This document shows positions 8,334 through 63,922 of a stretch of DNA of 64,000 nucleotides, one piece after another (position 1 is the first letter of the stretch; each line of letters opens with the position of its first letter). The stretch is from Chitinophagales bacterium. GTDB lineage: Bacteria; Bacteroidota; Bacteroidia; Chitinophagales; Saprospiraceae. The translations under genes were made by a program, and so were the position numbers. The notes below the pieces were generated by a model. That model was given only the letters and a program-made list of their open reading frames with translations, had not been told where the DNA came from and searched no databases. The DNA lies in contig JAAFJY010000008.1 of the NCBI GenBank assembly GCA_013299105.1, forward strand, positions 62,001 through 126,000. The letters are read 5' to 3'.

Positions 8334-9372
8334 ACGGATCTTTGCCCCCTGATAAAAACTCTTGGTAAGTTTTCAACTCGCCCCATTGGCCGTTGGCGGC
8401 CAATTCGGCTTGTTTGGGCCAGGTATCGGGCTTGGCGAGGCGGTAAGCATCTCCAGCTTGGTCCAGGATACCTTGCAGACGGTCGACCGGCGCGGCAGCG
8501 AGATCCACCCAAGTCATGATGCCCGCGTTTTTCAGCAATTCTTCGATCTTTGGACCGATGCCTTCTACGATCTTTAGGTCTTCTGGATTGTTGCTGAAGC
8601 CGAGGATTTTCAAAGCCATTTCTTCTACTTTGGCCGGAGTGAGGCCAGTAGCGTTGGTTTTGCCCGTATCCAGGGCTTTTTGGTACTCCACCAGACCAGT
8701 CCAATTGCCCGAAGCTGCCAATTCGGCTTGCTTTGGCCAGGTGCTTGGGTCCATCATTTTGTAAGCAGAGCCTGCCGCTTCCAAAATGGGGCGGATGTCG
8801 TCTGGTGTTTTAGTAGCCAAATCAGCCCAAGTGCTGATGCCATTTTTAGCCAGCAGTTCATTCACTTTTGGCCCGATACCTTCTACGATTTGCAAATTGT
8901 CAGCGGCGAAAATGGTGCCATAAGCGATGCCGCTTGCAGGTTGCAAGTCCGCGCTCATTTCAGGAGCAGGCGCAGCAACCGCAGCCGAGATAGCTGCGGC
9001 TGCTGGGGCGGCTGCTTGCAGTGCTTGTGCCTGCATGACCGCGATTTTTGCCCTCAAACCAGCCACATCGGCATCGGCGTGCATCAATTTATCGTGATAA
9101 GCCTGGCTTTCCTTTTGGCATTCTTCTAGCTTGTATTTGAGGTCCACGTTGGTTTTCTCGTAATCGCTGGCACGGTGTACTGCTTCGTCCAATTGAGCTT
9201 GCAGCGCACCACCATAAGCGCCTGAGCTGCCAACTGCAGTACTTGCCTGGCCACCTTTGCCACGCAAAAGAGAGCCAAATAACCAGCCCAAAATGAAGGG
9301 CAAAATACAGGCCAGCAAAAGCGGCAGCCAGCAATTCATCGGGATGTGTAAAAGCATATTGAGGAGTAACAT
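8329..9372 (-). CDS. Membrane-anchored protein with two helix-hairpin-helix-like repeats
   Basis: A 347-residue protein. Residues 13-35 form one membrane segment, 55-115 a probable coiled coil, 118-140 an Ala/Pro-rich linker, then two repeats at 160-236 and 266-342. Each repeat starts with IVEGIGPK and continues through a TW-DLA segment to PDTWPKQAELAA or a close variant. IVEGIGPK is a helix-hairpin-helix motif of the kind found in proteins described as predicted 5' nuclease-like (COG3743-type); such motifs bind DNA in other proteins, but no nuclease residues are evident. It lies 24 bp behind an OmpA-domain gene. ATG codons 1, 6 and 12 are all possible starts. Its stop codon lies in a dispersed repeat. 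Confidence 0.75.
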   Translation of the reverse strand: MLLLNMLLHIPMNCWLPLLLACILPFILGWLFGSLLRGKGGQASTAVGSSGAYGGALQAQLDEAVHRASDYEKTNVDLKYKLEECQKESQAYHDKLMHADADVAGLRAKIAVMQAQALQAAAPAAAAISAAVAAPAPEMSADLQPASGIAYGTIFAADNLQIVEGIGPKVNELLAKNGISTWADLATKTPDDIRPILEAAGSAYKMMDPSTWPKQAELAASGNWTGLVEYQKALDTGKTNATGLTPAKVEEMALKILGFSNNPEDLKIVEGIGPKIEELLKNAGIMTWVDLAAAPVDRLQGILDQAGDAYRLAKPDTWPKQAELAANGQWGELKTYQEFLSGGKDPS

Positions 9373-9396
9373 GGTAGTCGATTTTGGTTTTGATGC

Positions 9397-10230
9397 TTAT
9401 TTGATGAGCTTGACCTCTACCCGGCGGTTTTCGTGCCGGTTTTCGTCGGTCGTATTCGGGGCCACAGGTTCAGATTCGCCTTTGGAGCTGGTGCTGATTT
9501 GAGTGGATTTCACCCCTAGTTTCATCAGAATGCCCCTAATTTGCATAGCGCGATTTTGGCCTAGCTTGACGTTGTAGGGATCATCGCCTACATTGTCGGT
9601 ATGCCCAGTAAGAGAGATTTTCTCGCCGGATTTGATCACCTTTTTGGCCAAATCCTGGAGGTATTTTTCAACCTTGGGGTCATAATCCTTCTCGGTAGAA
9701 GCGAAGGGAAAACGGATAATTGCCCCATCGGCAACTTCTTCCACCGTTTCAGGGATGATTTTCTTCATCGAAAGCCATCCGAATTCCGAGGCATTGAAAT
9801 AGCCAGAACTTGGCGCGTCGCCGCTGAGTTTGCGAGCGTGAAGCCGGACCCTTTCTTCGGGTCTAGAGGTGAAGAATTGGTCTCGAATTTGCGCTGCACG
9901 GGCCAAGCCCATGTTTTCGTGACCAGCTGGTTTGGGCTCATTTTCGTAGTACAAACCAATGATTTCCAAAATACTGGTGTCACTGTTGCCAGCCATCACC
10001 GAAGTAATCAGAGAATCGAATCCAGGCCCTTGGACTGGCTTCATGTCCTGGGCTTGGAAATTGATGGGGAAACGAGGTCCCAAGCTGTCCATTTGATTTG
10101 GTACAGCAGCGGCACTGGTGTCTTTGGTACCACAGGCTTCGCAAATTTGCCGAGAGCAAAAATTGAGTAAGCCGAAGTAATAAAGCGCCAAGGCCAGCAA
10201 AATAAGGAGTATCCGTGTTGCTGTCGACAT
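9397..10230 (-). CDS. OmpA-domain cell-envelope protein
   Basis: A 277-residue protein with one N-terminal hydrophobic segment (residues 5-20) and a C-terminal OmpA/MotB domain from about residue 180. The peptidoglycan-binding signature is seen as LTGHTDNVGDD, followed by a conserved Arg/Asn-rich segment and ENRRVEVKL at the end. It should anchor the envelope to peptidoglycan. The middle part (residues 45-160) is not recognised. It precedes the helix-hairpin-helix membrane protein by 24 bp on the same strand, so the two are probably one transcript and may act together. Confidence 0.82.
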   Translation of the reverse strand: MSTATRILLILLALALYYFGLLNFCSRQICEACGTKDTSAAAVPNQMDSLGPRFPINFQAQDMKPVQGPGFDSLITSVMAGNSDTSILEIIGLYYENEPKPAGHENMGLARAAQIRDQFFTSRPEERVRLHARKLSGDAPSSGYFNASEFGWLSMKKIIPETVEEVADGAIIRFPFASTEKDYDPKVEKYLQDLAKKVIKSGEKISLTGHTDNVGDDPYNVKLGQNRAMQIRGILMKLGVKSTQISTSSKGESEPVAPNTTDENRHENRRVEVKLIK

Positions 10231-10457
10231 AGGCTAACGGGTTATCGTGATGCGATTAGATGCGATTAAATCCAGGTCCAATATGCTCTAGGGAAGGGAT
10301 GGTTCTACAAAACCAGTCGGAATGATGTGTGATAAGTTGCCTAAAAATAATATTTTATGCGGTCAAACAAGTATTCTACACAATATTTTTTTGTAATTTT
10401 TTTGAACGCTTACTGCGGAGGGCTTCAAAAAATAAAAACAACGTATTTTCGAGTCCC

Positions 10458-11864
10458 CTACAAGCCTGCTTCTTTGCCTTTTTCTAGCATATAAGCAAAG
10501 GCTGCTTCGTACTCATTGGGAATGATGCCTTCCAAAATGGCTTCGCGAACCGCGTTTTTAATGATGCCAACTTGAGATGAAGGTTCCAACTTGAAGGTTT
10601 CCATGATGATTTCGCCCGTGATTGGTGGCTGCCAGTTGCGCAAGTGGTCACGGGCTTCTACGGCCTCTAGGCGTTCCCTCACGAGCTCATAGTTTTCGAG
10701 GTAGCGCTTGACCTTAGTGGGGTTCTTTGAGGTAATATCGGCTTCACAAAGCAACATCAGGTCTTCCAGGTCCTCGTCCGCATCTACCAATAAGCGGCGC
10801 ATGGCCGAATCGGTAATTTCCTCTTTGGTCAGGCTGATTGGGCGCAAATGCAGGCGAACCAGCTTTTGCACATACTTCATTTTGTGGTCTGTTGGCAGTT
10901 TCAGCCTGCGGAAAATGTTAGGTACCATGTTGGCCCCCAGTACCTCGTGGCCATGAAAAGTCCAGCCGTGTTCCGGCTCAAAGCGCTTGGTTGGTGGTTT
11001 GGCAATGTCGTGCATGATGGCTGCCCAACGCAACCAGAGATCATCTGTTTTTTTGCTGAGGTTATCCAACACTTCCAGCGTATGGTAAAAATTATCCTTG
11101 TGGGCACGGCCATTTTTCACTTCGACCCCTTGCAAGGCGGCCATCTCTGGAAAAATCAGCTTGAGTAAACCTGTATCGAACAAATGCTTGAATCCGATAG
11201 AGGGCTTGGGCGAAAGGATGATTTTGTTCAACTCGGTCGCAATGCGCTCTTGTGATATTATTTTGATGCGGTCTTTGTACTTCCCAATGGCTTGGAAAGT
11301 AGTAGCTTCGATGCTGAAATCCAACTGACAGGCAAACCGAATGGCCCGCAACATCCGCAGGGGGTCGTCTGAAAAAGTTTTGCCAGGCTCTAAAGGCGTG
11401 CGAATGATTTTGCTTTCGAGATCCCTTAAGCCATTGAAAGGGTCAATGATGCGGCCAAAGTCTTCGTCTTTGAGACTTACCGCAAGGGCGTTGATCGTAA
11501 AATCACGGCGATTTTGATCGTCTTCAAGGCTGCCTTCTTCCACTGCGGGTTTGCGAGAGTCGTGGCGATAAGATTCTTTACGGGCACCTACGAACTCAAT
11601 TTCGAGGTCACCGTGCTTCAACATGGCCGTGCCGAAACGACGAAAAACAGTTACCCTAGGAATGGGATGTAACTCATAAGCCACCTTTTCAGCCAGATCG
11701 ACACCACTGCCAATGCAAACCACGTCTAAATCCTTGGATGGCCTTGCCAAAAGCCGATCACGGACATACCCACCCACTACGTAAGCAGGTACATCCATTC
11801 CTTTGGCCACTCGGCTGACGAGTTCCAATATTTTCCGTTCCTTGTCCTCGATCTTAAATACCAC
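10458..11864 (-). CDS. cca: CCA-adding tRNA nucleotidyltransferase / poly(A) polymerase family
   Basis: A 468-residue protein. The head has GGYVRDRLL (residues 31-39) and the metal-binding DLD (D45, D47) of class II nucleotidyltransferases, then RRDFTINALA and DPLRMLRAIRFACQLDF, the nucleotide-specificity region. A C-terminal HD domain (MHDIAKP near residue 285) suggests an additional phosphohydrolase activity. It should add or repair the 3' CCA end of tRNAs; poly(A) polymerase activity cannot be excluded by sequence. It lies 20 bp behind dusB on the same strand, making a two-gene tRNA-modification operon. Confidence 0.92.
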   Translation of the reverse strand: MVFKIEDKERKILELVSRVAKGMDVPAYVVGGYVRDRLLARPSKDLDVVCIGSGVDLAEKVAYELHPIPRVTVFRRFGTAMLKHGDLEIEFVGARKESYRHDSRKPAVEEGSLEDDQNRRDFTINALAVSLKDEDFGRIIDPFNGLRDLESKIIRTPLEPGKTFSDDPLRMLRAIRFACQLDFSIEATTFQAIGKYKDRIKIISQERIATELNKIILSPKPSIGFKHLFDTGLLKLIFPEMAALQGVEVKNGRAHKDNFYHTLEVLDNLSKKTDDLWLRWAAIMHDIAKPPTKRFEPEHGWTFHGHEVLGANMVPNIFRRLKLPTDHKMKYVQKLVRLHLRPISLTKEEITDSAMRRLLVDADEDLEDLMLLCEADITSKNPTKVKRYLENYELVRERLEAVEARDHLRNWQPPITGEIIMETFKLEPSSQVGIIKNAVREAILEGIIPNEYEAAFAYMLEKGKEAGL

Positions 11865-11884
11865 GGTAAGGCTAATAGCAGGTG

Positions 11885-12886
11885 TTAGTAAGCAGGCTCC
11901 AATTCGGTTTCTCCGTAAGCCATTTCGATTTGGTAAAGCACCTCAAAAAGGTCATCTGGGTTTTCCAGGCTCACCAATTGGCTGCGAAATTCTTTGATAT
12001 TTGGAAAACCTCGGAAATAATTGGTGTAGTGGCGGCGCATTTCAACCACGCCCACCTTTTCTCCTTTCCACTCAATTGAATGTTGCAAATGCTGTTTGAC
12101 CGCTTCTACCCTTTCGTTTACGCTGGGAGGAGCCAGTAATTCACCAGTTTCAAAATAATGCTTGATTTCGCGGAAAATCCAGGGGTAACCAATGCTGGCG
12201 CGGCCAATCATGATGCCATCCACATTGTACTTTTGGCGGTATTCCAAGGCTTTTTGCGGCGAATCTACGTCACCATTGCCAAAGACCGGGATTTTTAGGC
12301 GTGGGTTGGCTTTGACTTTATTGATCCATTCCCAATCGGCCTCCCCCTTGTACATTTGGGCGCGGGTTCGGGCGTGAATGGTCAACGCCTTGATGCCAAC
12401 GTCTTGCAGGCGTTCAGCAACTTCTTCGATGAAAATGGTGCTGTGGTCCCAACCCAAGCGGGTTTTGACCGTCACGGGCAAGTTGGTGGAATCCACAACT
12501 GCCTTGGTGAGCTCCACCATTTTTTTGACGTCGCGCAGGATGCCTGCCCCTGCCATTTTACACACCACTTTTTGTACCGGACAACCATAATTGATGTCCA
12601 ATACTTCGGGCTGGGCGGCTTCTACAATTTCAGCCGCTTTCATCATTGAATCCAGTTCAGCGCCGAAAATTTGCACCCCAATAGGCCGCTCGTAATCGTA
12701 AATATCCAGCTTCTGTAAACTTTTTTCAGCATCACGGATCAGACCTTCCACGGAGATAAACTCGGTGTACATCATGTCTGCCCCATGTTTTTTGCACAAG
12801 GCCCGGAATGGCGGATCACTCACATCCTCCATGGGTGCCAGCAAAAGTGGGAAGGCTCCTAGCTCAACATTTTCGATTTTTACCAT
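11885..12886 (-). CDS. dusB: tRNA-dihydrouridine synthase (DusB-like)
   Basis: FMN-dependent reduction of uridine to dihydrouridine in tRNA. A 333-residue TIM-barrel protein. It has LLLAPMEDVSDPPFR near the N-terminus (FMN binding), the active-site loop DINYGCPVQKV with catalytic C102, KTRLGWD, the TIHART segment and MIGRASIGYPW for phosphate binding. First gene of an operon with cca. Its leader carries a perfect 17-bp inverted repeat (12905-12952) that ends 18 bp before the start codon, so translation or transcription may be controlled there. Confidence 0.93.
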   Translation of the reverse strand: MVKIENVELGAFPLLLAPMEDVSDPPFRALCKKHGADMMYTEFISVEGLIRDAEKSLQKLDIYDYERPIGVQIFGAELDSMMKAAEIVEAAQPEVLDINYGCPVQKVVCKMAGAGILRDVKKMVELTKAVVDSTNLPVTVKTRLGWDHSTIFIEEVAERLQDVGIKALTIHARTRAQMYKGEADWEWINKVKANPRLKIPVFGNGDVDSPQKALEYRQKYNVDGIMIGRASIGYPWIFREIKHYFETGELLAPPSVNERVEAVKQHLQHSIEWKGEKVGVVEMRRHYTNYFRGFPNIKEFRSQLVSLENPDDLFEVLYQIEMAYGETELEPAY

Positions 12887-55873: not shown

Positions 55874-57247
55874 CTATTGCTTGACCAACTTGGTGGTATA
55901 TTGGTAGCGTTCATTGCGCACTTGAAGGCTGTAAAAGCCTGGACTTAGGTCGGACATATCCAATTCAAGTTTGCCCGATAAAGGCATTTTCCCGAAATTG
56001 ACAACTCTACCGTGCAAATCACGCAGAAAATATTGGTATGCTTCATTACCAGGCAGTGCTTCATGAGCTTGCAGCAGCACCCTGTCTTGCACTGGATTTG
56101 GGAATAAATTGAACTGAGCCGTGGGCAAGTCAATCACAGGGGTAGCCCCCAATAATTTCGCGGTGACCTGTGAGCGGCCCCAGGTTGCGGTTTTCCAGTC
56201 ATTGGGCAGGTCAGCAGCCAATTTGCGAATGAGTGTCAAGTCAGTTGCATCCATTGCTTCGTCCTTGCCTTTGATGACAACCAAAAGTACTTTGATGTCT
56301 TTCATTTTGGGGTCCAGGCTGGGAATGCGCCTGCCATCGCCTTCATAGCGGCCATCATTGGCGAGTTTCAGGGCCGCGATAAAGTCGTCCAATTTAATGG
56401 TGTGTTGCGCAGTCGGTTTGTTGTTTTCGTAGATGGTGTAATTGATTTTGGAAGCCTCCATATAGTCCATCAAACCCATCGTGTACAAGTCGTAAGCATT
56501 GAATTTGGGGTCAGTAGCCCCAGAATACATGATTCCCGGCCAGGTTCCATTGGCGTCTTTGGTCCAGTTCCAAGACCAGTGGGCGCAGCAGCCAGATAGC
56601 CAGGTGATGGGGTGCTTACTGGCATCCCAGGTAGCGGGGCCGACACTGGCATTGGCAGTAAGTTGTACCCCAAAATAATGCCCCATTTCATGAAAAGCGG
56701 TCAAAGTACTGTTGTAGTTGGGAGGGAACTCTATGTTTTTGGTCAAAAAGGCCAGGTCGTTCATGTGCGGTGCGGAGCGCAGTTTAGTCCAACCTGCATG
56801 CGCAGTAGAAGTAGTAGTGTATTGCGAATTGTTTTGACCGATATTTCTGGCAGGCACAAACATGCGCCCGCCAGAATGAATCCAACCTGGGAGTTCACGC
56901 AGTGAGTACATCAACACAAAATCGTATTCGGAAGCAGTGACCGCCTTCCTCAATTGTGGCATGATCGTATTGAGGTCAAACACCCCCGGTTGTACCCGCA
57001 TGTTGGGGTATTTGACCGCATCGTGGGTGGGGTGTACGTCATACACCGAGGGGTACTCCATCACCACCGCGATGTTGTCGATGTAAGAGATTTTGGCTTC
57101 GGGAGCACCCGATCGCAACTGGCTATGGAAAACGTGCTGATTAGGGTCAAAATAGTCGTTGGCGCAAAAGGGAGTGTGGACATGCTGGGCGGCGGCAAAG
57201 AGTAGCTGACCAAGCAGTACAAAAGTCAAAATGGTTCTTTTTCTCAT
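55874..57247 (-). CDS. Secreted HExxH zinc metalloprotease-like protein with T9SS tail
   Basis: A 457-residue protein with a signal peptide ending near FAAA. The motif HEMGHYFG (H186, E187, H190) in AFHEMGHYFG is a zinc-metallopeptidase signature. The third zinc ligand at the usual spacing is not obvious. Several histidines, tryptophans and a CC pair (WLSGCCAHWSWNW) follow. The last 80 residues (FNLFPNPVQDRVLLQ to GFYSLQVRNERYQYTT) form a T9SS type A sorting domain, so it is probably exported and cell-surface exposed. Substrate unknown. No inhibitor or chaperone gene adjoins it. Confidence 0.85.
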   Translation of the reverse strand: MRKRTILTFVLLGQLLFAAAQHVHTPFCANDYFDPNQHVFHSQLRSGAPEAKISYIDNIAVVMEYPSVYDVHPTHDAVKYPNMRVQPGVFDLNTIMPQLRKAVTASEYDFVLMYSLRELPGWIHSGGRMFVPARNIGQNNSQYTTTSTAHAGWTKLRSAPHMNDLAFLTKNIEFPPNYNSTLTAFHEMGHYFGVQLTANASVGPATWDASKHPITWLSGCCAHWSWNWTKDANGTWPGIMYSGATDPKFNAYDLYTMGLMDYMEASKINYTIYENNKPTAQHTIKLDDFIAALKLANDGRYEGDGRRIPSLDPKMKDIKVLLVVIKGKDEAMDATDLTLIRKLAADLPNDWKTATWGRSQVTAKLLGATPVIDLPTAQFNLFPNPVQDRVLLQAHEALPGNEAYQYFLRDLHGRVVNFGKMPLSGKLELDMSDLSPGFYSLQVRNERYQYTTKLVKQ

Positions 57248-57509: not shown

Positions 57510-58751
57510 TCACTCAAACAATTTATACCAACTCCGCGCATATAAATTTTCAGATAAGAGCAATTCATCATGAACTCCTTGTACGCCAATCGTCCCTTGC
57601 TCAATGACGTAAATGCGGTCCATTTTTCTAGCAATATTTGAGTGGTGCGTAAACAAAACCACTATACAATTTGGTTTGATTTTTTGCAAAAGTTGGAGCA
57701 TAAACGCTTCTGTATTGTTGTCCAACGCGGAGGTGGGTTCATCCAATAGAAGCAACCTGGGCTGGTGAACAAGTGCTCGTGCAAGCCCGATGATTTGTTT
57801 TTGGCCTCCAGAAATCGCCAAGCCCGATTCACCAAGCATGGTAGCGTATCCATTGGGAAATTGTTGAAAGAAAACATCAAATCCAAAATGACTAAAGAAG
57901 TGTTCAACTTGCTGAGCGTCCTGAATTTCTTCACCCAAGAGGATATTGTCAATCAAAGATGCATTGAATATTTTGGTTTCCTGTGAAACCACACCAATCA
58001 AGGACCGCCAGTTATTAAGACCAATTTGATCCAGATTTGTACCATTCACCAATATTTCTCCACTTTCGATGGCGAAAAACTTTTGTAAGATGTACATCAA
58101 CGTACTTTTTCCACAGCCATTTTCACCGATGAATGCAACACTTTCTCCTTTTACAACCTTGAAGGAGAAGTTTTTGAGCAAAGCCGATTTGCCTGGAAAC
58201 CTGAACAGCAAATCTTTAACCTCAAGCGTTTCGATGTCCAGAATCTGCTCATCCGCCTCTTTTTTTGGGGGTCCTGATTCGTGCTCGATGGCAGTAAATT
58301 CAAACATCCGATCAAAAGCGATCTTGGCTTCTTCAATGCCGATGAGAATTTGTGAAAAACTGACCGTAGCGTTGGTTACCATCCCTGTCAGTTGCAAAAT
58401 GGCAATCAGGGTACCCGCAGTCATATGACCATTGAGCATTAGGTAGGCACACCAACTCAACACGATTATCAGGGTTAAGCTGCTTAGTATGTCTATTTTG
58501 ATCTTGAAGTTCGTGTTCAAAATGGCAAGGTTATAGCCTACTTGATGCAGTTGTTGATAGATCCCTCGGGTCATTTGAAAAAATACACTTTGCTTGTTTT
58601 TTCGCTTGATTTCATCCATTCCTTGCATGGTGTCGATGAACTGACTTTCGTTCATGCCATTCAGATTCATCGTCTCATACTGAGCTTTGATGAGTTTAGG
58701 CTTATATACATGAAACAGAAAATAAAACATCGGAAACCACAGTAAACTCAC
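57510..58751 (-). CDS. C39-peptidase ABC exporter, C-terminal part (membrane half and ATPase)
   Basis: A 413-residue frame with two or more membrane helices and a full ABC ATPase: Walker A GENGCGKST (209-217), Q-loop VVSQETKIF, signature ISGGQKQI (313-320), Walker B LLLLDE (333-338), and an H-loop in LFTHH. It starts with GTG inside a membrane helix, so it is not a natural N-terminus. It is the C-terminal part of the exporter whose first part is 58748-59686. The two frames overlap by 4 bp. Adding one T in the T6 run on the minus strand (A-run 58772-58777) would join them as a 725-residue protein. It should couple ATP hydrolysis to export of a peptide. Confidence 0.85.
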   Translation of the reverse strand: MSLLWFPMFYFLFHVYKPKLIKAQYETMNLNGMNESQFIDTMQGMDEIKRKNKQSVFFQMTRGIYQQLHQVGYNLAILNTNFKIKIDILSSLTLIIVLSWCAYLMLNGHMTAGTLIAILQLTGMVTNATVSFSQILIGIEEAKIAFDRMFEFTAIEHESGPPKKEADEQILDIETLEVKDLLFRFPGKSALLKNFSFKVVKGESVAFIGENGCGKSTLMYILQKFFAIESGEILVNGTNLDQIGLNNWRSLIGVVSQETKIFNASLIDNILLGEEIQDAQQVEHFFSHFGFDVFFQQFPNGYATMLGESGLAISGGQKQIIGLARALVHQPRLLLLDEPTSALDNNTEAFMLQLLQKIKPNCIVVLFTHHSNIARKMDRIYVIEQGTIGVQGVHDELLLSENLYARSWYKLFE

Positions 58752-59686
58752 CAGGCCGATTTGCCAATTGTAAAAAAGATGGCAAAAATGGCCACCAAAC
58801 CCACCAAAATGTCAATAGAAGCCTGACTGATCAGCGTTGAAATAGTACGCTGAATCCTTTGAGTATCGTTCATCCTCGCAATCAAATCCCCTACCTTGCG
58901 ATTAAGAAAAAAGGATTTAGGCAAGTTGAGCAACCTTGAAAAGAAAAAATCCAGGGTCCTGATGTTGAAATCGCGCCCTTGCCGCACCAGCATCAATGAC
59001 CTGGTATAGGCAAACAAAGCCTTGATCGAGAACAAGAAAAAAAGTACAAACAATGCGACGAATACCTTGCTAAAATCCTTGGATGGAATGATTTTATCGA
59101 GCAATCGCTGTGAAAAGATTGCCGTTGAAATACTCAATATTGCGATCAACACCCCAAAGGAGAAGAAAAATAACAATAAATTTTTGTCTTCTAAAATCAA
59201 GGTTCTGAACCACCTTACTTTTTTGCTACCCAAGTTCTCCTTTTTCAAGAGGGCCTCGTTGGGTTTCAACAGCAATAAGGTCTTTGAAAGCCAAATCGAG
59301 CTTAAATCTTGTGGGCTGATCAACCTTACACTAGCCTCGGCTGGATCGCCAATTAAAAACTTTCCAGTACCTGAATCAAATCCGTAAGAAACCAGAAAAT
59401 GGGCCTGGTTGTTTTCTTTGGATACATGCAAAATGCCAATGTCAGCACAAGCCTTCAAGTGTTCCACATCCGATTCGTATCCTTCTGCATTCAACCCAAG
59501 TTGTGCACTTGCTTGGTAAAGCCCAAGCAATGAGGTACCCTGCGTATTGGTACCCGATAGATTTCGGATGGCTTCAATGGTTGCATCCGACTGGAAGTAA
59601 CGCAATACACTTTTTACACAGGCTGGCCCACAATCACTGCTGTCTCTTTGTTTTACGTGATATTTTTGGATGTTTTTCAGGTTCAT
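58748..59686 (-). CDS. C39-peptidase ABC exporter, N-terminal part (peptidase and first membrane helices)
   Basis: A 312-residue frame. The C39 cysteine peptidase domain spans residues 1-130: oxyanion Q13, catalytic C19 in DSSDCGPACVK, H96 in AHFLVSYGF and D114 in IGDPAE are all seen. Such domains cut leader peptides after a double glycine. Membrane helices follow from about residue 165. The frame stops at TGA after FFTIGKSAW; with one extra T in the preceding T-run it continues as FFYNWQIGLV into the ABC half. So the gene is either broken, uses slippage at the homopolymer, or carries a sequencing error. It is the last gene of the operon with glycosyltransferase and thioredoxin-like genes. 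Confidence 0.85.
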   Translation of the reverse strand: MNLKNIQKYHVKQRDSSDCGPACVKSVLRYFQSDATIEAIRNLSGTNTQGTSLLGLYQASAQLGLNAEGYESDVEHLKACADIGILHVSKENNQAHFLVSYGFDSGTGKFLIGDPAEASVRLISPQDLSSIWLSKTLLLLKPNEALLKKENLGSKKVRWFRTLILEDKNLLLFFFSFGVLIAILSISTAIFSQRLLDKIIPSKDFSKVFVALFVLFFLFSIKALFAYTRSLMLVRQGRDFNIRTLDFFFSRLLNLPKSFFLNRKVGDLIARMNDTQRIQRTISTLISQASIDILVGLVAIFAIFFTIGKSAW

Positions 59687-59716
59687 TGGTTTCGTTTTAT
59701 GGTTATGTCAAATAGG

Positions 59717-61051
59717 CTATCTGCCCCCCAAAGATCGGAGCAAGGGGATGACCTCGACCCGCTGCTCCTCTTGTACCATTTTAGCTTTCAAGGCTTTGAT
59801 GTTTTGTTTGAATGCAGGTTCTGTGAGCAAGCTTTTGATTTTGCCATCCAGCTCTTTTGTGCTGGCCCTATTCACATTCGCCCGCAAGCCAATATTATGG
59901 TAAACAATCCTTGCAGCATTGCCATTTTGATCCCATCGGGCATTCAAGGGCAGGGCCAGCATGGGGACTTCATTGTGGATACATTCATACACCGAGTTCG
60001 CCCCAGCATGGGTAATCATCAAGTCGAACAAGGGAAGCGATTTTACCTGGGCGATGGTTTCGTAAACGAGGATGTTTTGCCCCTGGCTTTCTTTGAGTTC
60101 CCTGTGAAATGAATTGGAAGCAATGACGAGGCACCATTCGGGGCGATTTTGAAAAAGCTTAACCAATTTCTTCAACACCATGACGCTTCCTTTCTTGTTG
60201 TGGGTAGCGCTCAAAGTGCCTAATGCGCAAAAAACAAGTTTAGAGAAATTTCCTTTTTCCTTCACCAAGACAAGCTGGTCGTGGATTTCGAGTTCATTTT
60301 GAGCGAAGTTTGGCTGCGGATTGTATTGAATGGCCAGGTAATGCTGCTCAACTTTTGGTTTGCTGCGCGGAAAATCAAAGGACTGGTAGCCGAGAATAAG
60401 CTCTGGTATGTTTTTTATCCCTGGGTGAAAACACTTGTTGTACCAAATCGCGTCCTTGGTGCTGTATCCATTTTTTTGGGCAAATCTTTTGGCGGTAATC
60501 CAAGAATCTTGCCAAAAAGTATGAAATGGACGCAGCGCTTTTTCAATATTTATCCTAATCCATGCCATCGAAATGACCAATTGGTTGAAAATTGAGCCCT
60601 CATAAAGCAAGCTTGAATTCAGGGGCGGCAGTTTTTGGTCTCTGTAATTGTTCATTTGCGTGTTGAACAGCACCATTTTAGACTGAAAAGACGGTAGGGC
60701 AAAATAGAAACGCGACAAAAAACTGTCGATGAGCACAAGATCAGGATTGTAGGCCACTATCTGTTGTTCCAAATGCTGGATTTGGTTTGCAAAAATCTTG
60801 TAGTTTTTGTCTGATAACCAATCTCCAAAAAGATCCAGCATTGATTCATGGAAACCATGCTCTCTTTCAAGTTCCTTATTTTGGAAAAGAAAACCAGTGC
60901 TTGAAACACTGGTCTGTTTGCTGATGAAATAAGAGCCGTCTTTCTCAGAAACAAAGGCCAATTCCAAATTCGCTGCATTGCAAATGTGCAAGAGAGGCTG
61001 ACAGGCAACAGTATGTCCGCTGGCAGATGGTATCCAGAATAGCATTTTCAT
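59717..61051 (-). CDS. GT1-type (MGT/UGT-like) glycosyltransferase
   Basis: A 444-residue protein of the GT-B fold. The C-terminal nucleotide-sugar segment is clear: DLMITHAGANSVYECIHN followed by PMLALPLNARWDQNGNAARI (residues 343-382), the MGT/UGT donor-binding pattern. The N-terminus begins MKMLFWIPSASGH, like macrolide or lipid glycosyltransferases. It should transfer a sugar to an acceptor, which could be a peptide, lipid or small molecule. It starts 3 bp behind the thioredoxin-like gene and ends 30 bp before the exporter gene. It is unrelated to the GT2 type (SunS) of known glycocin systems. Confidence 0.87.
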   Translation of the reverse strand: MKMLFWIPSASGHTVACQPLLHICNAANLELAFVSEKDGSYFISKQTSVSSTGFLFQNKELEREHGFHESMLDLFGDWLSDKNYKIFANQIQHLEQQIVAYNPDLVLIDSFLSRFYFALPSFQSKMVLFNTQMNNYRDQKLPPLNSSLLYEGSIFNQLVISMAWIRINIEKALRPFHTFWQDSWITAKRFAQKNGYSTKDAIWYNKCFHPGIKNIPELILGYQSFDFPRSKPKVEQHYLAIQYNPQPNFAQNELEIHDQLVLVKEKGNFSKLVFCALGTLSATHNKKGSVMVLKKLVKLFQNRPEWCLVIASNSFHRELKESQGQNILVYETIAQVKSLPLFDLMITHAGANSVYECIHNEVPMLALPLNARWDQNGNAARIVYHNIGLRANVNRASTKELDGKIKSLLTEPAFKQNIKALKAKMVQEEQRVEVIPLLRSLGGR

Positions 61052-61054
61052 CTC

Positions 61055-61576
61055 TCAAAAACGCAGGTCAATGTTATCAATGGATTCATAACCTTCGTAT
61101 ATCTTGTGGATACGACCAGCCTCATCGAAGGTAATGATGGCTGAGGAAGACTTGATTTTTAGCTTTACGTGTACAGAACCATATGGATCGTGCAGAAAGT
61201 TGACGTTCTCCTTGGCTAGAAAATCGTGGTCTTGGTTCTGCAAAAGGGAATAGGCGTCTTTGATGTTAGGTCCGATGAAAATAATCCTTGAATCAGCAAA
61301 GAGGTGAAAATTTTCATGGATTTCCCGGATTGCTGATTGACAAATTTCGCAACCCGGGTTGAACAAAACCATGACTACATTTTTGTCGCTCTTTTCAAAT
61401 TTATAGAGCGTACTGTCTCTTTTGTAAAGTTTGAAATCACTGATAGCCGTATTGCTCCTGGAGCTTTTTCCTTCAGCCAGTTTTTTGCTTTTTGACAGGG
61501 CAAAATACACCGCTACCAGTGGCAAGGCCATGATCAGCAAAAAATAGACGATGCCCAAGCTTCTTTTCTTTTTCAT
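61055..61576 (-). CDS. Membrane-anchored thioredoxin-like protein
   Basis: A 173-residue protein with one N-terminal membrane anchor (residues 8-27) and a thioredoxin-fold domain outside the cytoplasm. The active-site motif is CEIC (C76, C79) in FNPGCEICQS. The C-terminal half has FLHDPYGSVHVKLKIKSSSA and a cis-Pro-like position is not evident. It could reduce, oxidise or isomerise disulfides of an exported peptide or protein. It lies 11 bp behind the membrane protein gene and 3 bp ahead of the glycosyltransferase. Confidence 0.82.
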   Translation of the reverse strand: MKKKRSLGIVYFLLIMALPLVAVYFALSKSKKLAEGKSSRSNTAISDFKLYKRDSTLYKFEKSDKNVVMVLFNPGCEICQSAIREIHENFHLFADSRIIFIGPNIKDAYSLLQNQDHDFLAKENVNFLHDPYGSVHVKLKIKSSSAIITFDEAGRIHKIYEGYESIDNIDLRF

Positions 61577-61587
61577 GCTTGATATTT

Positions 61588-62199
61588 TTAAACCATCATT
61601 AAAGTCATGGCGATTGTGATACTGAAATAGACGATGGCCATTAAAAAAGAGATAATAGCCAATGACCTAGTAGAGATGGTGTCAAATACATAATCACTCA
61701 ATAAAAAAACCACTACAAAAAAGATCAGGTCGAAATAGCTGATAGATGAGAGAATAATCCTGAAGACATCATCGCCTAGCTCAAATGTGTTGGATTCTTG
61801 CTCCAAATAAAACACCCGGTTGAAATCCTTCATCTCACCAAGGGCGAAATCGGCATGGAAAAAAGAAAAATAGATCACCCGGACAATATCTGGCACAAAA
61901 AAAGCGCAGTAGGCAATCAAAATTATTTTCAACAATTTGCGATTGTCAAGGTCAGCCCAGAGGTAGGAAATGCCTTTTAGCAACACAAAGAACATAAAGA
62001 CATATAACAACATGATACCAATGCCTAACATGCAGTTGTATACCATAAAACTACTGAAAGTTACGTTGTTCGTAATATCTTCTTCTTTTAGCATGGGTGC
62101 TCGTAACCAAAAGTATAGAATATACCTGGTACTAAACATTAGTGCTGGAAGGATTAGAAAAAGCCAGTAGCGATTTTTTATTTGAAGAATTGTCTCCAT
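61588..62199 (-). CDS. Polytopic membrane protein of unknown function
   Basis: A 203-residue protein with five or six hydrophobic segments, with long aromatic-rich helices (YVFMFFVLLKG, VRVIYFSFFH, DLIFFVVVFLL). Its charged N-terminus (METILQIKNRYW) suggests a cytoplasmic start. It is the first gene of the operon leading to the thioredoxin-like protein, glycosyltransferase and C39 exporter. It could be an immunity or maturation protein, but nothing in its sequence shows this. Confidence 0.78.
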   Translation of the reverse strand: METILQIKNRYWLFLILPALMFSTRYILYFWLRAPMLKEEDITNNVTFSSFMVYNCMLGIGIMLLYVFMFFVLLKGISYLWADLDNRKLLKIILIAYCAFFVPDIVRVIYFSFFHADFALGEMKDFNRVFYLEQESNTFELGDDVFRIILSSISYFDLIFFVVVFLLSDYVFDTISTRSLAIISFLMAIVYFSITIAMTLMMV

Positions 62200-62407: not shown

Positions 62408-63922
62408 TTAGTTCTTTTTATATTGCTCCTCCAGTGATTCTTTAAATGTTAGATCCCTAATGACTTTAGCTTCTATAGGAGAGGCAAGGAGAATATTATA
62501 GTTTCGCCAGAACTCCTCATTATACTTAGCCTTTGTTTTACTTATATTCTCATCTCTATCAATAGTTTCCCGGGGCTTAATTTTATCCATTTCATCCCTT
62601 TCCGTTTGTATAGAATTGATCATCAAAGTACATGTTTTATAACTATAAGTTTTTTTACCTTGACTGACATTGCTTTGCCGAGAATCTCCGAGGGTTAACC
62701 AATTGATAAAAGACAAGTAGTATTTCCCTTTTATTTTTTGGTAATCTATATTTAATTTATCCATGTATTGTTCCTCAAAATGAGTGCTTTTGCTAGATTC
62801 TTCAGCAGACCTCCTTAGGTGCTCGGGTAACGACTCTATGGAAGTTAGATTAGAATAATACATATCTATGTGATGAATCCCGTAATCATTGCAATTTACA
62901 AATAAGTTCCCAGTTCGACTATAGTAACGGAATTTCAAATTAAAAACGGGTTCTCCATCATAAGATGTAACATCTACTATACGAATAGTACTCTTAGGCT
63001 CAGTAAGGATCACTTCCAATTCATTTCTAAAGGAGCCTCCATAAGCTACTATTCCACCTACGTCAGATCGTTCAATTTTATTAATAAGGTGTATTCTTAT
63101 TGGATCCTGAATGAGAATATCGTACAAATCATTCTCCTCGCCAAATATTTTTTTCCGCTCCCAAAGGGAAAACCCTCTCTTTGCATAATCATCGCTCTTC
63201 CTAAATTCGTTTAATCGAATACGAATCTTTTTAGGGTCTGACTTAATTCCCCAATCTCTAATATCAAGCATCCCTTCAAAAAGTTGTGTAAAACGATAAT
63301 CATCTCTATTTTGTACTTTTTCCCGAAAGAAAGCGTTCATTTGAAAAGGTTTCGTAGGGTAATTTTTTTTGAACCGATCAATAGCTTTTTTTAATATTTT
63401 TTTTGCAGAATCTGTATTGTTGAAAATAACAATCTCTTGTAAGCTAATAATATCTGGAATCAGTTCAATCTTCAAAGTATCATTTTGAGTTAATTTCGAA
63501 TAATTTTTTATTACTATTTGCTTAGTCCTGTACCCAAGGAAGCTAATCAACAAGGTATCGTTTTCGGCACTTTGTGGATAATAAAATGAAAAACGCCCCG
63601 ATTCATTTGAGACGACACCTATGCCAATTTGAGGGATTCCAACATGAGCAAATGCAATGGAAGCATTGGTTTGTTTGTCGATAATTCTGCCGTTTAGTTG
63701 TTTGTTTTGTGCAAATGAAAAATTAATAGTTGAGAATAAAAAAACTGGGAGCAAAAATAATTGAATTAGTTTATTTTTGATCTTCCAATATTTCTTCTCA
63801 ACGAATAAAAGGTTGTGTCTTTTTATTCTGTTCTGGTTTAAAATTAAAGTAGCAACCATTTTTTTACTATTTAAGCTTTTAACCAGATGTTCAACACCAA
63901 AAAACAAATGATTAATTAGCAT
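62408..63922 (-). CDS. CarboxypepD_reg-like secreted protein
   Basis: A 504-residue protein. A hydrophobic segment around residues 52-70 ending at FAQ is a signal peptide only if the true start is nearer than the first Met; the ATG at codon 22 (position 63859) is also possible. The mature part begins with a CarboxypepD_reg-like domain (QLNGRIIDKQTNASIAFAHV, LISFLGYRTKQIVI), then a long beta-rich region of the kind found behind such domains in Bacteroidota (DUF5686-like; not confirmed). The gene is visibly AT-rich and rich in Lys, Asn and Ile codons, unlike most of the window. The 208-bp gap to the export operon (62200-62407) holds no accepted gene. Confidence 0.75.
   Translation of the reverse strand: MLINHLFFGVEHLVKSLNSKKMVATLILNQNRIKRHNLLFVEKKYWKIKNKLIQLFLLPVFLFSTINFSFAQNKQLNGRIIDKQTNASIAFAHVGIPQIGIGVVSNESGRFSFYYPQSAENDTLLISFLGYRTKQIVIKNYSKLTQNDTLKIELIPDIISLQEIVIFNNTDSAKKILKKAIDRFKKNYPTKPFQMNAFFREKVQNRDDYRFTQLFEGMLDIRDWGIKSDPKKIRIRLNEFRKSDDYAKRGFSLWERKKIFGEENDLYDILIQDPIRIHLINKIERSDVGGIVAYGGSFRNELEVILTEPKSTIRIVDVTSYDGEPVFNLKFRYYSRTGNLFVNCNDYGIHHIDMYYSNLTSIESLPEHLRRSAEESSKSTHFEEQYMDKLNIDYQKIKGKYYLSFINWLTLGDSRQSNVSQGKKTYSYKTCTLMINSIQTERDEMDKIKPRETIDRDENISKTKAKYNEEFWRNYNILLASPIEAKVIRDLTFKESLEEQYKKN

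Follow-up and report, generated by a model that had tools for sequence, protein, structure and literature searches.

The stretch of DNA analysed here, called the window below, comprises 64,000 nucleotides of a Chitinophagales bacterium (G000:C76:62001-126000, where G000 is the bacterium's own genome; C marks a contig and L a fetched locus). A minus-strand operon in the window is, on balance, read as a bacteroidetocin-type (class IIf-like) operon with an added family 1 glycosyltransferase (GT1), which would yield a glycosylated, disulfide-bonded antibacterial peptide. Four functions are encoded in the order membrane protein, thioredoxin-like protein (TRX), glycosyltransferase (GT) and C39-ABC exporter, with intergenic gaps of 11, 3 and 30 bp. 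A first-pass annotation had described this one-strand layout, with which the coordinates agree, and had proposed a glycosylated-peptide export system. That idea is strengthened by the sequence comparisons below: its main objection, a missing precursor, falls, and the nearest kin appears to be bacteroidetocin, not sublancin.

Putative precursor peptide and operon

The putative precursor is encoded at G000:C76:126022-126213 on the minus strand (126019-126213 with the stop codon; locus L027), corresponding by extrapolation to window positions 64019-64213, minus strand, with the stop codon ending 19 positions past the last window base. The open reading frame (ORF) of 64 amino acids (aa) consists of a 15-aa double-glycine (GG) leader, MKSISFEQMAKVTGG, and a core of 49 aa, in which Cys occupies four positions, 5, 16, 34 and 49 (spacing C-x10-C and C-x14-C). 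It was the only match in its own genome, and it matched no NCBIfam model, one generic leader model being sub-threshold. The first-pass annotation had reported no GG precursor in the operon or its flanks; this holds for the 64-kb window, where the leader scan gave no candidates, but a precursor-type ORF lies directly beyond the window end and was missed because the window stops just before it. A promoter-like TAATTTTG, for which the scan gave no matching upstream element, was located upstream of the precursor at window-equivalent position 64382.

As a control, the leader scan was applied to 262,504 bases of 16 control loci and gave 4 candidates, none with two Cys. At loci of the membrane-protein family it gave 57 candidates, 55 of them with at least two Cys (including four hits later set aside and repeats). 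A Protein Data Bank (PDB) search with the peptide of one relative gave no match.

The order of transcription is precursor, 96 bp, CarbopepD_reg_2 (CPD) protein, 208 bp and then the operon. The features in the window are as follows.

62408-63922, minus strand: CPD protein, 504 aa, 208 bp before the membrane protein (profile scan)
61588-62199, minus strand: membrane protein of a family found at C39/GG-peptide loci (profile E 2.3e-14)
61055-61576, minus strand: membrane-anchored thioredoxin/ResA-like protein, CEIC motif (profile scan, transmembrane (TM) prediction)
59717-61051, minus strand: GT1 (UGT/MGT, GT-B) glycosyltransferase (profiles, sequence, model)
58748-59686, minus strand: exporter ORF 1, 312 aa, C39 peptidase and first half of the TM region
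58772-58777, minus strand: run of six T, site of the exporter frame change (alignment to relatives)
57510-58751, minus strand: exporter ORF 2, 413 aa, second half of the TM region and ATPase

The TRX protein gave a weak AhpC-TSA/ResA match (AhpC-TSA below cut-off) and carries the CEIC motif and one N-terminal hydrophobic segment; it is probably a disulfide oxidoreductase or isomerase for the peptide. The membrane protein had no Pfam or NCBIfam match. A role of the CPD protein as receptor or immunity protein is a guess. Downstream of the operon, a 457-aa protein at 55874-57247 (minus strand) has a type IX secretion system (T9SS)-type sorting tail.

Related operons

Matches to the GT were counted in overlapping genome sets, with the own genome included each time. 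They were found in 10/60 relatives at E 0.001, in 36/398 family genomes and 6/395 class genomes at E 1e-20, and in 6/345 phylum genomes at E 1e-25, the last adding nothing beyond the earlier matches. Most were of a more distant type, described below as the other clade.

The GT adjoins the membrane-protein family in four relatives, G003 and G004 (same genus, both deposited as metagenome-assembled genomes of 'Saprospiraceae bacterium'), G366 (same family) and G968 (another class). In G003 and G004 membrane protein, TRX and GT stand in the window's order and are followed by GG two-Cys peptides; G004 has an unbroken C39 exporter of 712 aa, and no exporter was present on the 6.9-kb contig of G003. 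In G366 a membrane protein, exporter and GT occur with a series of two-Cys peptides, and in G968 an exporter, GT and membrane protein occur with one two-Cys peptide, TRX not being found there. GT, membrane protein and two-Cys GG peptides thus stand together in 4/4 relatives, with the C39 exporter also present in 3/4 (not G003). The first-pass annotation had named related operons that never carry a small leader-type ORF as refuting its proposal; small GG ORFs were present in all four, against refutation. When the same gene set was sought in related genomes, the same gene types recurred together, and the grouping is therefore more than chance. Gene content, the leader and Cys pattern, the recurrence of the set and the fold type of the enzyme are read from the sequences themselves.

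At the G003 and G004 loci (L015, L016) TlpA-like proteins of ∼400 aa with a thioredoxin domain (two scanned) come in alternation with the two-Cys peptides, as if every peptide had its own TlpA-like partner.

In the proposed mechanism, the GT1 would glycosylate the 64-aa precursor in the cytoplasm from a sugar nucleotide, the C39 exporter would cut after the double glycine and export the 49-aa core, and the CxxC protein with the membrane protein would close the disulfides. The product would be a small glycosylated, disulfide-bonded antibacterial peptide. Within the system first proposed, GG peptide export with a GT1 is well supported; our inferences concern the acceptor, taken to be the peptide, its modified residue, the sugar and the activity.

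Glycosyltransferase family and tree

The GT was assigned to GT1 with a predicted GT-B fold. It scored 55.2 bits with UDPGT (cut-off 19.5) and 66.4 bits with TIGR01426 (below the subfamily cut-off of 260), and its nearest solved sequences were OleD-type and YjiC enzymes. A structural model (predicted local distance difference test score (pLDDT) 71.5, weak at residues 38-79) was searched with Foldseek and matched UGT202A2 (E 2.2e-15) and an OleD-type macrolide glycosyltransferase (E 5.5e-15) with TM-scores of ∼0.6. His13, Asp109 and the C-terminal donor-site motif were invariant among five homologs; His13 and Asp109 are taken to be the catalytic pair. The earlier assignment to GT1 and not GT2 is borne out by the UDPGT/MGT profiles, the OleD/YjiC neighbours and the GT-B model.

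A maximum likelihood tree was calculated from 45 rows (43 different). The window's GT fell in a clade of 14 rows from 13 loci (support 90/83), and most family homologs fell in another clade of 27 rows (support 100/100). A C39 gene was found near the GT at 9/13 loci of the window's clade (one of the nine, L077, being a C39-domain protein without an ABC part), 0/16 loci of the other clade and 0/3 outgroup loci. The 16 were the fetched loci; 11 of the 27 rows were seen with only ∼1.5 kb around them and were not counted, and three of the 16 were short stretches (L018 a 3.8-kb contig, L065 and L069 below 9 kb). The grouping of GTs that stand next to C39 genes supports the GT as part of peptide systems.

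The tree also bears on whether the GT belongs to a lipid or non-ribosomal peptide synthetase (NRPS)-like glycolipid pathway and stands beside an exporter by chance. The commonest family homologs do have AMP-ligase-, carrier- and condensation-like genes (identified by eye) as neighbours, but those GTs form the separate clade of 27 rows with no C39 gene at its 16 loci, and G003 and G004 share the order membrane protein, TRX, GT with the window. This candidate, disfavoured by tree and neighbour genes, was rejected as very improbable. Loci of the other clade (L017, L019, L020, L063-L071, L074, L075 and L081) form recurring clusters holding acyl-CoA-dehydrogenase-, AMP-ligase-, carrier-, condensation-like or polysaccharide genes, also named by eye.

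A second alternative keeps the peptide system as described but gives the GT1 another target, an envelope lipid, a surface target or a small molecule, for example in self-protection like that by macrolide glycosyltransferases. The nearest solved relatives, OleD-type and YjiC, act on small molecules (acceptors from general knowledge), and loci of the same type without a GT are common. Bacteroidetocin regions have no recognised immunity gene in the text available from PMC6671954, which leaves such a role open. Set against this, the Cys-rich GG peptides and maturation systems next to which GTs of the window's clade occur differ widely, and a part in peptide maturation accounts for this no less well. 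In that clade, TIGR04149-like peptides (below the model cut-off) occur in G659 and G707, together with a C39-like protein in G659 and a VKOR-family protein in G707; G201 has a VKOR protein and a Cys-rich GG peptide, and G533 (L080) a grasp-with-spasm locus (TIGR04192) with an exporter and a GT4-like protein (by eye). Moreover, a profile scan of the window proteins found no lipid or sugar-nucleotide gene inside the operon. A non-peptide acceptor is considered rather unlikely.

Exporter reading frame

The first-pass annotation had treated the exporter as one gene. All C39 exporter domains, peptidase and ABC parts included, are present, but on two ORFs, 58748-59686 and 57510-58751, overlapping at GTGA. 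In alignments to three unbroken relatives (own contig C33, G004 and G366) the first part followed one frame and the rest another, no more than one residue between the two parts stayed unaligned, and the switch was localised to the six-T run at 58772-58777. A natural gene split at GTGA was rejected: two frames are needed to align the relatives across the break, and the switch between these frames lies upstream of GTGA, at the T run. Programmed frameshifting was considered as another possible reading. The break is either a sequence error or a true lesion, and in the latter case this copy could not export on its own. The exporter is unbroken in G004, G366 and G968.

Should the break be a true mutation, the copy would be decaying and no product would be made here, whatever the relatives do. 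A frame change amid sequence that is otherwise conserved on both sides would fit such decay. It lies, however, in a T run, a common site of sequence errors; the other operon genes are open, and the unbroken C39 exporter of contig C33 (730 aa, ∼45% identical to the operon's) could act in trans. Decay is thus held to be possible and somewhat improbable, and for the relatives it is compatible with the preferred reading of a glycosylated bacteroidetocin-type peptide.

The C33 exporter belongs to a second locus of the own genome (L026, 241-3768) with a GA-leader two-Cys small ORF and a thioredoxin-like protein; the contig starts just upstream of this locus, and no membrane protein was seen there. 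Another C39 exporter in two ORFs (450 + 263 aa) was observed in L117 (G434, 9775-11943), split elsewhere than the operon's.

Membrane-protein loci

A profile of four membrane-protein sequences, the window's included, was searched against genome sets and matched 27/395 phylum genomes and 13/398 family genomes, own included. Forty-four neighbourhoods were examined (40 fetched plus L015, L016, L027 and L062), of which 43 yielded the membrane protein in their ORF set; none was recovered in L167 by ORF choice and profile. Outside the locus set stood matches in G104, with internal stops, and in G1028, where two rows fell on a single position and one of them had internal stops. A C39 gene was present at 31/43 loci, C39 with a GG candidate at 25/43, C39 with TRX at 19/43 and this GT at 5/43. 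The TRX count is a lower bound: ORFs were chosen greedily, and L016 has an open TRX gene (9757-10461) that this choice did not recover. The 12 loci lacking C39 include L015, which is cut off early, and L124 and L152, in which pieces of an exporter are present.

Five TM segments were predicted in the G003 and G366 homologs and four above cut-off in the operon's membrane protein. The latter was found at E 2.3e-14 by an iterated profile built without it but including G003/G004 relatives, the next-best window ORF scoring 0.0076. No match was obtained in a collection scan with the window's membrane protein or in a plasmid search with a related one, and the AlphaFold model of the G366 membrane protein had a pLDDT of 51.

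Several observations weigh against a glycosylated bacteroidetocin-type product. The exporter frame is broken in this assembly. The GT is absent from 38/43 membrane-protein loci and is therefore not needed for the basic system. No exporter piece was found at 9/43 loci, so the membrane-protein family is not confined to such loci. In the tree the window's GT is a long branch, which makes its exact place unsure, and the clade support of 90/83 falls below the program's star. No C39 gene was found at 4/13 loci of its clade, although at two of these (L072, L085) the sequence extends for ∼10 kb to one side or both. Among membrane proteins the window's is divergent, and those closest to it, in G003 and G004, pair with CPD proteins and no exporter or peptide. 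These pairs weaken its link to peptide export; the arrangement in L128, where membrane protein, GG peptide, CPD-like protein and exporter occur together with the CPD-like protein between peptide and exporter, speaks for that link. Peptide glycosylation itself is put forward as a proposal on sequence grounds.

In the G003 and G004 pairs (L161, L162), CPD proteins adjoin a membrane protein that shares 43-44% identity with the window's; a MoxR-like gene (by eye) lies beside them, and no exporter, GT or GG peptide was found there. In L159 (G027, 8679-10207) five near-identical six-Cys GG peptides form a row between a member of the membrane-protein family and a C39 exporter. L128, L134 and L164 encode GG peptides with four Cys and cores starting KFWG, beside the membrane protein and a C39 exporter; we regard these starts as reminiscent of pediocin-like ones, and the peptides are possibly true bacteroidetocins.

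Candidate acceptor residue

All distinct peptides (12/12) from GT loci with the membrane protein had their first Cys within 5 residues of the leader and their last Cys no more than 4 residues from the end, with a Tyr between −4 and +2 relative to that last Cys. In peptides of GT-less loci, all three features were present in 5/40 and a Tyr near the last Cys in 10/40. The Tyr hypothesis was noticed first and tested afterwards. A naive Fisher test on the Tyr count (10/10 against 10/40 peptides, which are non-independent) gave p 1.8e-5. L016:5929, L122:5809, L152:4775 and L170:5594 (judged intragenic or with the wrong start) were left out before this count, as were duplicate cores and those with a single Cys or none. 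For exact permutation by locus, 12 and 40 peptides from 26 loci were used with G003 and G004 merged, two peptides having been added by hand: L016:2786, outside the scanned span, and L062:6201, with GEG instead of GG. This gave p 0.014 for Tyr as the best of 20 residues tried, and for that reason the enrichment is not significant after correction; Tyr combined with Cys near both ends gave p 0.0023, post hoc. GT1 enzymes often act on phenolic hydroxyls. The Tyr beside the last Cys is taken as a candidate glycosylation site, as a lead only.

The wider proposal that the GT1 clade, shared among several Bacteroidota peptide-export systems, makes glycosylated disulfide-looped bacteriocins with the Tyr beside the terminal Cys as acceptor is distinctly doubtful. 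Were it true, these bacteriocins would belong to none of the three kinds of glycosylated ribosomal peptide named in the available text of PMC8068269, namely glycocins, NAI-112 and cacaoidin.

Comparison with known systems

Known OleD/OleI-type GT1 macrolide glycosyltransferases and YjiC are of the same sequence and fold family as the operon's GT; they act on small molecules, and we know of none in a C39 peptide operon. Glycocins have a GT2-type (SunS-like) enzyme and two C-x6-C helices joined by a loop. The operon differs in its UDPGT/MGT-family GT1 with a GT-B model and in a peptide with C-x10-C and C-x14-C, and glycocin membership was rejected on these two features, both general background. 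The sublancin likeness put forward in the first-pass annotation stands as a functional analogy, the gene set fitting bacteroidetocin loci with a GT1 added.

Statements on the cited papers refer to those parts of each that were available. In sublancin and thermoglycocin (PMC12457901), GG peptide, peptidase-transporter, thioredoxin-like proteins and glycosyltransferase likewise stand in one cluster, and the clusters as described there have no five-TM protein. Cacaoidin carries an O-glycosylated Tyr (PMC8068269) and is a precedent for such modification of a ribosomal peptide; it differs as a Streptomyces lanthidin with GT-2 and GT-4 enzymes and other maturation. Bacteroidales clusters for ribosomally synthesised and post-translationally modified peptides also combine GG peptides and peptidase-transporters, with accessory glycosyltransferases in 2/9 (BGC3, BGC9), but have radical S-adenosylmethionine (rSAM)/LanC or LanM enzymes (PMC10352776). 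The available part of PMC13289728 mentions neither bacteroidetocins nor glyco- terms, and open-licence literature, at the level of titles and abstract openings, described no combination of a glycosyltransferase with a GG/C39 peptide locus.

The closest likeness is to the bacteroidetocins (class IIf), whose regions encode a five-TM protein, a GG-leader Cys peptide, a C39 ABC transporter and, in most cases, a thiol oxidoreductase (Coyne et al. 2019, PMC6671954). There the gene regions are compact, the leaders have 15-16 aa and the peptides at least two Cys (A and B have four), loss of either the TM or the oxidoreductase gene lowers activity, and in E. coli the four genes are sufficient. The operon shares the thiol oxidoreductase and the GG-leader Cys peptide; its precursor has a 15-aa GG leader, a 64-aa ORF and four Cys, and its oxidoreductase is the CEIC thioredoxin-like protein with weak family scores. 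Its C39 peptidase-transporter has all domains but a broken frame, and its membrane protein, with four segments above cut-off, is of a family with five in G003 and G366. The comparison was made on gene set, on leader and Cys pattern and on the TM protein as described. The operon differs in the CPD protein between peptide and operon and in the broken exporter frame. The main text of PMC6671954, as available, does not contain the word glycosyltransferase, and by gene content the GT1 appears as an addition to the known bacteroidetocin set. In G004 and G366 the gene sets appear intact and of a size that would allow a test in E. coli, like the bacteroidetocin region of four genes (PMC6671954). Bacteroidetocins serve as peptide weapons, with producers and targets both belonging to the Bacteroidetes; if the peptide is glycosylated, the product would be a sugar-decorated version of a known weapon, and a branch with its own GT1 would broaden the chemistry of bacteroidetocins and could bring in a type of enzyme new to peptide glycosylation.

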